The notes beneath the pieces were generated by a model. That model made no database searches. It had not been told where the DNA came from and was given only the letters and a program-made list of their open reading frames with translations. A program made the position numbers and the translations under genes. From the IMG/VR virus record IMGVR_UViG_3300032083_000329, positions 1 through 32,272 of that record: a DNA stretch of 32,272 nt. One strand, written 5' to 3'. Positions within the stretch are counted from its first letter, which is position 1, and each line of letters starts with the position of its first letter. Below are positions 4,281 through 14,138 of the stretch, piece after piece. This DNA comes from a virus.

Positions 4281-5474
4281 TTAGCTAAAATGTGTAATTC
4301 TATTTAGTAAGTAAGTTTTATATTCATCTTCTAAACCTACTAGAAAATGATCTTCAACACTTTCATCAATTGAGTTACTAGTAATAGCAACATCTATATG
4401 ACTAGGTATTTTATAACCATTTAAATCATGTTGTTCATTACTAGTTCCATATCTATGGTTATAGTGTTGTTGTGTTAAACACTCTACAGAATGATGACTA
4501 AACTTTGATCTAATAGTTGAAATAGTTCTTCTAACAGATTTAGCATTATCTATTCCACAATGTGCCATGATCTCTTTTGTAGTTGCTCCATTATCTGTTT
4601 TACATAAAGACCACAACAAACCTAGTTTAGAATTAGGATTGAAAGGTTGATTAGGTAAATCTTGCCTTTCAATTCTACTATTATTAGCTAACAATCTATT
4701 GTTAATAGAATGATTAAACATATTAGCTAACATCATAACAAATGGTTTTACCTTGTCTCTTTCAAGTGTTGCTCCATGTTGTCTAAACTCAATAGTTCCA
4801 TATCTTGCATATGATTGAAGATTAATAGCAAAAAACTTGTCTCTTCTATTAGTTGATGAATGCCTTTGAATAGCATTCATTAAAGAAGACACAGAACCAT
4901 CACATTGACGAATGGCATCAACACATAATTCTAAACCTTGGCAAAATCTATTGTTTGTTCTGCTAGGTGGAAATATTTTGTTAATGTCTAATTGATGAAT
5001 AGCATATCTTAAAACAACATCTTTAATTATTGCATTGTCTAAAACATCATCAAAAGAACTAGAAGATTGTGAAACATACGATCTATTAGTTCTATACTTA
5101 TCGATTGATAATTTAGTAAAATCTTGATTTGTTATATTTGTAGATATAGGTTTTAAACCTATATGGACATGAACTCCACAACACTTTTTAACACTACATC
5201 CATTATTAACAAGTAATGTTAAAACCTTATTCACATAGTACCATGATAACTCACTATCAATTGATAATATTGGAAATGCTATTTCAAAATCAACTCCGTG
5301 CGTACCATCTGTTTTAACTTGAATAAAGTTTAACTCTTCATCATTGTTAAAAACTGTTTGTAGTTCACTAATTGATTGAGTGTTTCCACGACTAGTAAAA
5401 ACCCCCTCAAATTCTAATCCCATTGTAAGACTAGTTCTATTTGTGTTTTGTAAAATATTCAATTTGTACTCCAT
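4281..5474 (-). CDS. Amidoligase (Amidoligase_2 / GCS2-like fold)
   Basis: A predicted ATP-dependent COOH-NH2 ligase that would join an amino group to a carboxylate, making amide-linked peptides or modifying a protein or wall component. Family landmarks appear in order: MGLEFEGVF (metal-binding Glu pair, residues 18-26), VKTDGTHGVDFEIAFPIL (about 53-70), CCGVHVHIGL (about 98-107) and AINLQSYARYGTIEFRQHGATL (about 217-238). The C-terminal third adds a winged-helix-like segment (GATTKEIMAHCGIDNAKSVRRTISTIR). Amidoligases are known from phages and commonly pair with AIG2/GGCT cyclotransferases; one lies in the next cassette. There is no clear Shine-Dalgarno before ATG 5474. The gene has its own terminator and a weak upstream promoter candidate, so it looks like a moron. 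The substrate cannot be read from sequence. Confidence 0.9.
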   Translation of the reverse strand: MEYKLNILQNTNRTSLTMGLEFEGVFTSRGNTQSISELQTVFNNDEELNFIQVKTDGTHGVDFEIAFPILSIDSELSWYYVNKVLTLLVNNGCSVKKCCGVHVHIGLKPISTNITNQDFTKLSIDKYRTNRSYVSQSSSSFDDVLDNAIIKDVVLRYAIHQLDINKIFPPSRTNNRFCQGLELCVDAIRQCDGSVSSLMNAIQRHSSTNRRDKFFAINLQSYARYGTIEFRQHGATLERDKVKPFVMMLANMFNHSINNRLLANNSRIERQDLPNQPFNPNSKLGLLWSLCKTDNGATTKEIMAHCGIDNAKSVRRTISTIRSKFSHHSVECLTQQHYNHRYGTSNEQHDLNGYKIPSHIDVAITSNSIDESVEDHFLVGLEDEYKTYLLNRITHFS

Positions 5475-11878: not shown

Positions 11879-12067
11879 CTAAAATTCATCTAAAATACTT
11901 TTTGTTTCCATATGGGTATAATTTTTTTGAACTTTGCCGTATTCGACTTCTTTTGCAGCTCTTGGATCGTCTTCAAATAATTGTTCGCTTGGGTCGGGTT
12001 CGGTCTTCGTATTCATAGCTTCTTTACATACTTTTTTCAAAGCATTGTAATTCTCACTACTAGTCAT
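11879..12067 (-). CDS. FEDDPRA-motif protein (62 aa)
   Basis: MTSSENYNALKKVCKEAMNT continues with KTEPDPSEQLFEDDPRAAKE and a polar tail. LFEDDPRA matches MFEDDPRA in the 122-aa protein at 10193-10561, where it follows a zinc ribbon; here the ribbon is in the preceding separate gene. ATG 12067 lies inside the last codons of that gene (TATGAC), an 8-nt overlap, so coupling is likely. Other in-frame starts exist at 12076 and 12205; the last would overlap the ribbon gene almost fully. Confidence 0.62.
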   Translation of the reverse strand: MTSSENYNALKKVCKEAMNTKTEPDPSEQLFEDDPRAAKEVEYGKVQKNYTHMETKSILDEF

Positions 12068-12254
12068 AGCGAACATCCCATGTAGCATTATCAGGTTTGC
12101 AGGGCCAACAAAACCAAGACCAGCCGTTATTGATTGAATACGAAGCACCTGGTTTTCCACAAACCGAACAAATGTTCGTCTTTGGTATGGGCTGCGCTGC
12201 TGCAACCCATGTTCTTTTCACATCCCATGTTCTTCGTCTACTTTGTTCGCTCAT
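12060..12254 (-). CDS. Zinc-ribbon protein (64 aa)
   Basis: MSEQSRRRTWDVKRTWVAAA has a basic start, then CSVCGKPG and CWPCKPDN make a four-Cys ribbon with an aromatic loop (NNGWSWFC). GGAGG lies 6 nt before ATG 12254. It overlaps the end of the methyltransferase gene by 17 nt. Together with the next gene it reproduces the two-module plan of the 122-aa protein, so this is either a gene split or the ancestral two-gene state. Confidence 0.72.
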   Translation of the reverse strand: MSEQSRRRTWDVKRTWVAAAQPIPKTNICSVCGKPGASYSINNGWSWFCWPCKPDNATWDVRYD

Positions 12255-13302
12255 TTTCTGCCTCCTTTATTGCCCAAAATAACCTTGCAGCTACTTGGGG
12301 AACTATACTATTCCCCAAGGATTTTATTCGGTGTGTCCGATTGGATACCCCATGAGCCACTCGACCCACTCGGGGTTCAGGCTTCCACCAGATTGGTCCT
12401 GATCCGATTTCGAGTCGTCTATCTCGCTCATTCTCTTGACTATTACCCCCAATTGAGTGTCTTGCCTCTTGCTCCGATACAGATCCAGGTTCTCCCCCGA
12501 GTCCTTGTAATCCCGAGCCGTTGGTGTAGGGTACATCTCCCTTTTCTTTTTTTCTGCCATCGCAACTGCTGTCTGAAGTGTCGCTCCGAACTTCGTTCCC
12601 GTTCCTTTCCTCGTCACCGTGTAACCCGATTGATTCTCCTCCACATAATCCCCCATTCCTGGGAAGTAGTCCGTTGCTTTCGGTGTGGGCCACATCTTCA
12701 TCGTGTTCTCGTCCACTTGCTCCCTCAAATTGGAAGGTTTGCTGCGACCTTTCCGATGTCCGTTCATCATTCGGATTGTAGCTTCTTCTGACCTTTGGGG
12801 TAGATGATCCATCGTGTTCGGTGTGGCCCACAATCCAACATCGTTCTCGTCTGTGTTTGGCATCTGCGGCGCAAGCTGGAATAATAAATGGTGCGGCTTT
12901 GTATCCGATACTCTCCAAGTCAAAGAGACTTCTTTTGAGGCCCATTGGCATGTTAACAAAGCCTCGCACATTTTCCCCAATGATCCATCGAGGTCGTATG
13001 TCTTCAATAACCCTAACCATTTCGTGCCAGAGATCACGGTCATCTGAATCTCCTCGTTGTTCTCCTGCGACTGACCAGGGTTGGCAAGGGAATCCTCCAA
13101 CAACGATGTCTGCATCTCTAAATTCTTTTCCATCAAAACTCCTTATATCACTAAATATTGGAACATTATGCCAATGTTTTCGCAAGACTTTTTGGCAATA
13201 AGGTTCTCTCTCTACAAAGGCAACTGTTTCAAAGCCACCCACTAATTTCTCAGCAGCGTAACTAAAGCCACCGATCCCACTAAATAAATCAACTATTTTC
13301 AT
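12238..13302 (-). CDS. C5-cytosine DNA methyltransferase
   Basis: Transfers a methyl group from AdoMet to carbon 5 of cytosine in a specific DNA site. The 354 residues hold the full motif set: I VDLFSGIGGFSYA (4-16), IV GGFPCQPWS with catalytic Cys73, VI IGENVRG (108-114), VIII RRERCWIVG (151-159), and IX/X HRIKSLGNSIVPQVAARLFWAI near the end. The target-recognition region (about 165-300) has three HTE/YTNG-type repeats. I chose ATG 13302, which overlaps the upstream TGA (ATGA), over a TTG nine bases earlier. It may protect the phage from restriction; the recognition sequence cannot be read. A second long frame lies inside it (12324-13133). Confidence 0.95.
   Translation of the reverse strand: MKIVDLFSGIGGFSYAAEKLVGGFETVAFVEREPYCQKVLRKHWHNVPIFSDIRSFDGKEFRDADIVVGGFPCQPWSVAGEQRGDSDDRDLWHEMVRVIEDIRPRWIIGENVRGFVNMPMGLKRSLFDLESIGYKAAPFIIPACAADAKHRRERCWIVGHTEHDGSSTPKVRRSYNPNDERTSERSQQTFQFEGASGREHDEDVAHTESNGLLPRNGGLCGGESIGLHGDEERNGNEVRSDTSDSSCDGRKKEKGDVPYTNGSGLQGLGGEPGSVSEQEARHSIGGNSQENERDRRLEIGSGPIWWKPEPRVGRVAHGVSNRTHRIKSLGNSIVPQVAARLFWAIKEAENERTK
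12324..13133 (-). CDS. Overlapping frame inside the methyltransferase gene (WPTP-repeat / VEWLMGYP protein)
   Basis: 269 codons fully inside the methyltransferase gene on the same strand, shifted by one base. ATG 13133 is preceded by AAGGAG with a 5-nt spacer. The product contains DLDGSLGKMCEALLTCQW, SLTWRVSDTKPHHLLFQLAP, then three repeats LWATPNTMDH, MWPTPKATDY and MYPTPTARDY, and ends SLNPEWVEWLMGYPIGHTE. From memory, bacterial and phage databases hold proteins with exactly these phrases (LFQLAP, WPTPTA.D, LNP.WVEWLMG.P.GWT), often annotated as methylase-related. It could be a real overprinted gene or a frame kept open by the constraints on the methyltransferase. The function is unknown. 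Confidence 0.5.
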   Translation of the reverse strand: MEKNLEMQTSLLEDSLANPGQSQENNEEIQMTVISGTKWLGLLKTYDLDGSLGKMCEALLTCQWASKEVSLTWRVSDTKPHHLLFQLAPQMPNTDENDVGLWATPNTMDHLPQRSEEATIRMMNGHRKGRSKPSNLREQVDENTMKMWPTPKATDYFPGMGDYVEENQSGYTVTRKGTGTKFGATLQTAVAMAEKKKREMYPTPTARDYKDSGENLDLYRSKRQDTQLGVIVKRMSEIDDSKSDQDQSGGSLNPEWVEWLMGYPIGHTE

Positions 13303-14138
13303 CCCGTACAATCTCCTCCATCAGCTTGGCATAAGTACGCTTCATCGTTGAATATCCAATCTTGCTGTCTATCAACAAACTCTGCGAATTTCTTTAAGTT
13401 TCTTCCTCTCTCGAACTGTCTACCAGTTCTTTCTTCTGCATCAATCCACCATTTTGCTAGTTCAGGGTGGTCTCTCACCATTGATGCAAGTTGTGATTCA
13501 GACTTTAAAAAACATAAATCACAATTACCTTTAATAGTTTTGCCATTAACAACAGGCAAATCTAATTTAAAATCTTGTTTGTGCCAAAATTTATCAACGT
13601 CAAATATGGAATGATTAGCTTCACATATAGGATAAAAAGGGTAGAAGCCATTTGCAAAACCAGGTTTGCATCTGTGCTTTTCATCTGACCTTATACCCAA
13701 AGCGTTGTGCCACTTCTTCCAACCAAGGCTTCTTAAATACTTAGATGTTGTATCTCTTTTCAAGCTACCCGTACAAAACCTAGACATAGGATTAGGCAAT
13801 CTGTTGTGCTTATTTATTAATTTATCAAACGGTTCACCCTTACGACTTGCGTTGTCATAGTGAACAATTTTAAATACATGTTTGTTTTCTTCGTTCAAAT
13901 CATATTCTAACCAGGTAATTTTTACATCCCATTTTTGCGAACAATTATTTACGAAGTCCAATGTCTGTGGCATTTCACGACCAGTGTTTTGAAAGCAAAC
14001 CAAGGCGTTATCAGGCAATCCGTTGTTAGCTTCCAATATGTGATGAAGCATAAAGGCACTGGTTCTGCCTCCACTAAAGGATATGCAGACGTTATTGTCT
14101 GGAAGTTTATAAGTTTTCTGTTGCTGTTCTTGCATCAT
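13299..14138 (-). CDS. PAPS reductase-family PP-loop protein
   Basis: An adenine-nucleotide alpha-hydrolase fold, 279 residues. The PP-loop is ISFSGGRTSAFML (about 19-31), followed by FQNTGREMPQTLDFV, RFCTGSLKRD, ALGIRSDE and the Cys pair GNCDLCFLKS. Related proteins reduce adenylylated sulfate or, as in DndC, handle sulfur for DNA phosphorothioation. Phage members are widespread and uncharacterised. It is translationally coupled to the methyltransferase gene (ATGA) and overlaps the primase-helicase end by 32 nt. That context suggests nucleotide or DNA modification rather than sulfate assimilation. No dndD or dndE partner is in the window. Confidence 0.88.
   Translation of the reverse strand: MMQEQQQKTYKLPDNNVCISFSGGRTSAFMLHHILEANNGLPDNALVCFQNTGREMPQTLDFVNNCSQKWDVKITWLEYDLNEENKHVFKIVHYDNASRKGEPFDKLINKHNRLPNPMSRFCTGSLKRDTTSKYLRSLGWKKWHNALGIRSDEKHRCKPGFANGFYPFYPICEANHSIFDVDKFWHKQDFKLDLPVVNGKTIKGNCDLCFLKSESQLASMVRDHPELAKWWIDAEERTGRQFERGRNLKKFAEFVDRQQDWIFNDEAYLCQADGGDCTG

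Follow-up and report, generated by a model that had tools for sequence, protein, structure and literature searches.

A stretch of phage DNA is read in two overlapping frames that appear to encode the two halves of a single C5-cytosine DNA methyltransferase, one half catalysing and the other probably choosing the target, and the same arrangement recurs across many viruses and bacteria. The locus lies in a 32,272-base virus record (IMG/VR record IMGVR_UViG_3300032083_000329), the whole of which was analyzed and is referred to here as the window. In our interpretation, subunit A supplies SAM binding, catalysis and motif X, and its stretch across the overlap is an unstructured spacer that only has to stay open. 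Subunit B is inferred to start at an internal ribosome-binding site and to supply a tandem array of target-recognition modules plus motif IX, and the two are inferred to assemble into one enzyme that marks phage DNA against host restriction. The frames, their conservation, the division of selection, the internal start signal, the module turnover and the relatives with other arrangements were established by computation, whereas translation of B, assembly, methylation, recognition by the modules and the anti-restriction role are inferred, in the absence of expression, interaction or methylation data. We place the probability of this reading at roughly 0.85. The features of the locus are as follows.

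12238-13302, minus strand: frame A, C5-cytosine methyltransferase catalytic subunit, 354 aa from the ATG at 13302 (357 aa from the TTG at 13311).
12841-13290, minus strand: motifs I to VIII of A (DLFSGIGGF; PCQ at 13081-13089; ENV at 12967-12975; HRRER at 12841-12855).
12358-12804, minus strand: residues 167-315 of A, a spacer across the overlap.
12298-12318, minus strand: motif X of A (LGNSIVP), after the end of frame B.
13139-13144, minus strand: internal Shine-Dalgarno-like AAGGAG, 5 nt before the ATG of B.
12324-13133, minus strand: frame B, an overprinted 269-codon gene, +1 relative to A, stop included.
12831-13133, minus strand: N-terminal part of B (residues 1-101), over motifs IV-VIII of A.
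12693-12830, minus strand: repeat module 1 of B, beginning WATPNTMD.
12534-12692, minus strand: repeat module 2 of B, beginning WPTPKATD.
12387-12533, minus strand: repeat module 3 of B, beginning YPTPTARD.
12327-12383, minus strand: motif-IX-like end of B, SLNPEWVEWLMGYPIGHTE; the same bases read EPRVGRVAHGVSNR in A.

Frame A matches PF00145 (E 1.1e-44) over residues 4-183 only, and phrog_363 (E 5e-75). The Pfam match stops at position 181 of a 324-position profile, and A lacks a recognisable recognition region and motif IX. Frame B is an ATG...TAA frame preceded by AAGGAG-TTTTG-ATG (13144-13131). It has no Pfam or NCBIfam match, but matches phrog_1008, "DNA methyltransferase", over nearly its whole length (E 9.8e-30, B residues 6-268, profile positions 37-279 of 329). 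A search of the PDB by sequence with a B profile gave no match up to E 10, and phrog_1008 was not found in 14 control genomes. B ends in LNPEWVEWLMGYPIG, which resembles motif IX and sits, in the other frame, just where motif IX should be, 5' of motif X of A (LGNSIVPQ). Where B reads its three repeat units, A reads HTEHDG, HTESNG and YTNGSG.

Frame B is not a chance ORF. In 13 other genes of the window the longest stop-free run in either of the two other same-strand frames is at most 126 codons, against 272 here. We redrew the codons of A from the window's own usage while keeping its protein, and frame B was open in 0 of 400 draws over the N-terminal part (99 codons) and in 0 of 400 draws over the repeat part (168 codons). 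G+C is raised in positions 12001-13000 (0.479, against 0.31-0.44 in the other 1-kb steps), coinciding with the dual-coded stretch.

To establish how widely the overlap is conserved, we searched phage, viral and bacterial sequences. A tblastn search with B found 60 phage records, 51 of which cover at least 80% of B, most of them Paenibacillus larvae phages, at about 30% identity. In phage Shelly, the same frame is annotated as "g55 internal gene". Two B-based scans and one A-based scan of viral contigs, together with six phage records and the window, gave 240 loci (186 clusters at 97% identity, from the 238 whose overlap was long enough; individual loci are given L numbers below). All 240 have an A ORF and a B ORF overlapping in the +1 frame. 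This includes all 80 loci found with A only (78 new), although these are the best 80 of 589 candidates and hence near relatives of A. A scan of bacterial genomes gave 80 loci, all with the same overlap. Their titles and lineages name Bacillota, Bacteroidota, Pseudomonadota, Actinomycetota, Acidobacteriota, Nitrospirota, Planctomycetota, Verrucomicrobiota, Chloroflexi, Treponema and others, but many are metagenome-assembled genomes, so individual labels are uncertain. Five of the loci (L271-L275, OX638333.1, uncultured Roseovarius) have the same match statistics on one chromosome, suggesting several copies of one prophage or mobile element. By motif, 72 of the 80 are overprinted, 2 ambiguous, 1 split and 5 unclear. 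Of the 240, 202 are overprinted, 20 ambiguous (a second motif IX match in A), 3 split, 8 cut by a contig end, and 7 unclear or without a catalytic ORF hit. Among plasmids, 5 of 72,556 records match B. No stand-alone B was seen in the 240 viral/phage/window loci or the 80 genome loci, each scan keeping only its best 80.

Selection switches frame along the DNA. In 55 independent pairs at 70-97% nucleotide identity, we compared observed substitutions with neutral placement of the same substitution types. Over motifs IV-VIII of A, A-synonymous change was 1.85 times expectation (95% 1.75-1.96) and B-nonsynonymous change 1.01. Over the repeat modules, B-synonymous change was 1.81 (1.68-1.96), B-nonsynonymous 0.75 and A-nonsynonymous 1.09. 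Over motif IX, B-synonymous change was 1.95, B-nonsynonymous 0.72 and A-nonsynonymous 0.99. Counting single changes that would create stops was uninformative at this divergence, because neighbouring changes mask each other (stop A 0.92 and stop B 0.58 of expectation over the modules). In the window's own neighbourhood, all 8 substitutions in the module region against the near relative L088 are at B third positions, as are 9 of 9 against L089, 11 of 12 against L090, 18 of 20 against L087 and 12 of 15 against L105. Against L007, L008 and L091 the 62 changes are spread over all positions (17, 20, 25), and L007 carries a different module there. The more distant of the 14 comparisons show the same lean with more noise. 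Thus, the working parts of the enzyme alternate between A (motifs I-VIII), B (modules and motif IX) and again A (motif X).

The N-terminal part of B is also constrained. The fourfold-degenerate sites of A differ at 0.196 within the overlap and at 0.391 in the non-overlapping 5' part (ratio 0.50, 0.42-0.61, 49 pairs). In a wider set, the ratio is 0.44 (0.40-0.48, 104 pairs, not freed of near copies) for overprinted loci, 0.88 (0.81-0.96, 14 pairs) for single-chain loci and 0.79 (0.65-0.96, 26 pairs) for split loci. B is open from PCQ to motif VIII in 174 of the 179 clusters that have both motifs. However, this part shows no overall depletion of nonsynonymous change in B, and the classic single-chain enzymes of phages MM1 and D7138 also give a weak +1-frame match to it (E about 4e-4), so part of the similarity follows from A's own codons. 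In Streptococcus phage MM1 (L329, 1501-2658), a single-chain methyltransferase with in-frame motif IX, the weakly matching internal +1 gene (1652-2077) is annotated as ORF14, "putative methyltransferase", possibly a spurious call or a relic. An ATG with an SD-like site occurs in the start region of B in 157 of 176 loci, and in-frame ATGs there have such a site in 123 of 200 cases, against 303 of 1731 elsewhere in B.

Frame A, in turn, stays open through the modules. Of 180 clusters in which neither frame runs off the contig, A reaches motif X in 175 (166 by pattern with motif IX in B, 5 with motif X but an unusual IX, and 4 with an unusual X read by eye). If only the B protein were constrained, 0.28 of 164 loci would be expected to keep A open; those 164 were chosen for having both motifs, so 175 of 180 is the fair count. 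In the remaining 5 clusters, A stops after motif VIII. In 3 of these (L042, L081 and L217), B carries modules, IX and X, and these are natural two-gene versions nested among overprinted loci. The other two (L158, L202) look broken or are unexplained. In L202 the TRD-region frames appear switched and no motif IX is found in either, so that it may be a broken copy or a sequencing error.

The AlphaFold model of A (62 sequences) contains a confident catalytic domain over most of residues 1-160, with pLDDT mostly above 90 over motifs I to VIII, a disordered stretch at residues 167-315 (pLDDT about 35), and predicted motif X helices (322-330 and 335-353). In the alignment of the 62 sequences, the motif residues are invariant, including L329, G330, N331 and P335 of motif X. 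The best Foldseek match is M.HhaI (E 3e-13, over 163 columns). The model of B (73 sequences) is poor overall (mean pLDDT 59.5), but better for residues 31-90 (about 70-79 in most blocks) and for the motif IX end, in which M261, G262 and P264 are invariant. A fold search with B placed only 2 of 93 aligned chains at Z 2 or more (best 2.9) and was inconclusive.

Relatives carry the same parts in three arrangements. In the single-chain form, mycobacteriophage DillTech15 (gp66) has catalysis, several LPTPxxxD repeats, an EWMMGWP motif IX and motif X in one ORF, within which the B profile matches (E 8e-11). In the split form, the first gene of Cindaradix ends after motif VIII and a +1 ORF carries repeats, IX and X. 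50 of 80 Cindaradix-like viral loci are typed so (the rest being 10 single chain, 1 split in +2, and 19 unclear or cut), and Lymara reads the same way by eye. The overprinted form is found in the window and most others, including mycobacteriophage Royals2015. Of the 11 records we typed among 1568 matching phage records, five (RB16, MM1, D7138, Wphi, uvMED) are single-chain enzymes with no such +1 partner. Interestingly, Gordonia phage Neville (L325) has a single-chain enzyme with IX and X in frame, yet its +1 frame still holds an ORF that matches B residues of the N part and one TP unit (E 1e-17), a possible fossil of a frame change. On a tree of the catalytic domain (100 rows, quick method), 50 overprinted rows form one branch with 3 split rows nested in it (SH-aLRT 95), and two of these, L042 and L217, lie in the window's own five-row group (96). 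Six other overprinted rows lie outside, and the direction of change is not settled by this tree.

The repeat modules turn over as whole units between otherwise near-identical B proteins. The B proteins of 170 overprinted clusters carry 1 to 9 xTP units, most often 3 (71) or 4 (48). The window has units NTMD, KATD and TARD. The close relative L007 has NTMD, TATP and TARD, and L088, otherwise identical to the window's B, has all four. L105 and L103 have five and six, respectively. B of L105 (990-2399) carries an extra insertion of about 147 residues after module 1, which is open in both frames and is longer than a usual module. Such turnover of units is what exchangeable recognition modules would look like, although that they recognise DNA is inferred. 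The neighbouring genes are ordinary phage replication genes (PAPS-reductase-like, primase/helicase, Cas4-like exonuclease, helicase and Sak4-like annealing protein), with no restriction-enzyme partner evident among those scanned. Elsewhere in the phage, positions 4281-5474 on the minus strand encode a putative amidoligase (Amidoligase_2, E 1.7e-13).

A preliminary description of the sequence had proposed that the 269-codon frame could be a true dual-coding gene, with one nucleotide repeat feeding both proteins. The observation is correct, and the interpretation is supported by conservation, by selection acting in both frames and by the internal start sites. There are no stops in B among close relatives, synonymous variation is reduced, and homologous blocks exist outside the overprinted setting in single-chain or split enzymes. 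We add two refinements. Rather than an unrelated second gene, B looks like the target-recognition/motif IX half of the same enzyme. Furthermore, although one nucleotide repeat does feed both proteins, selection at the amino-acid level in the repeats is visible only in B, and A behaves there as an open but otherwise unconstrained spacer.

We considered whether programmed frameshifting might join the pieces into one chain, with A up to motif VIII, a +1 shift into B for recognition and motif IX, and a return to A for motif X. The working parts do alternate in this order, and single-chain relatives have exactly that order in one ORF. However, frameshifting would need neither the N part of B nor the spacer of A to stay open, and would require two separate shifts. 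Since both regions are open in nearly all clusters, an SD-preceded ATG is usual at the start of B, and the fourfold sites of A are suppressed over the N part of B, we regard this as unlikely, without having searched for slippery sites. It is similarly doubtful that B is a separate regulator or anti-restriction protein. The lack of a Pfam or NCBIfam match and of a confident fold would allow this, but A lacks a recognisable recognition region and motif IX, B supplies a motif-IX-like end, and relatives carry the B block in frame in a single-chain enzyme or with motif X in a split one. That B is a functionless by-product of the codon use and composition of A, as the raised G+C and the weak N-part matches in classic enzymes might suggest, is contradicted by selection following B in the module and IX regions and by the stops expected in B given the A protein, averaging 5.6 over the N part and 4.4 over the modules.

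The principle of such a divided enzyme is already known. The nearest known enzyme is the two-polypeptide M.EcoHK31I (Lee, Kam and Shaw 1995), in which the larger subunit has motifs I-VIII and X and motif IX is on a smaller polypeptide (PMC3404938); the small gene probably lies within the large one in another frame. The arrangement in the window agrees with this division of motifs. It differs in that the recognition domain of M.EcoHK31I has been placed, itself by prediction, in the larger subunit (PMC3404938), while here the conserved, modular recognition-like region is in B and the matching region of A looks like a spacer, and in how widespread the arrangement is. M.AquI is split within the variable region into two polypeptides, the first with motifs I-VIII (PMC3404938). 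L042, L081, L217 and Cindaradix have A ending after motif VIII and IX and X on the second polypeptide, whereas in the window motif X is in A and B lies wholly inside A. The single-chain enzyme of DillTech15 has the same catalytic half and the same repeat and motif IX block, but in one chain and one frame. In ShiLan, a second protein is also hidden in another frame of a phage methylase gene (PMC11855218), but this is a mobile HNH insertion, whereas B appears to be part of the enzyme itself. Our literature searches (papers consulted included PMC3404938, PMC3439449, PMC5944983, PMC11855218, PMC3025963, PMC6456624 and PMC4574080) found no paper whose title or opening of the abstract describes this phage-wide overlap, which is weak evidence of novelty given that most subscription papers lay outside their reach.

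A broader reading, which we consider more likely than not, is that these loci represent a general, old class of frame-partitioned enzymes. In phages and bacteria of many phyla, the target-recognition half of a C5-methyltransferase would have been displaced into the +1 frame, leaving catalysis and motif X in the first frame with a spacer between them. The displaced frame would carry an exchangeable array of recognition modules that phages shuffle to change or widen specificity, and the view that the large subunit of M.EcoHK31I-like enzymes holds the recognition domain would be wrong for this class. The locus is also a clean case of long same-strand dual coding in prokaryotes, with single-chain and split relatives as natural controls, so the origin and upkeep of an overlapping gene can be tested directly. 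Many genes filed as complete cytosine methyltransferases would be half-enzymes whose specificity lies in an overlapping frame that gene callers skip or label hypothetical. Expressing the annotated gene alone would give no activity, and target prediction from it would use the wrong protein.
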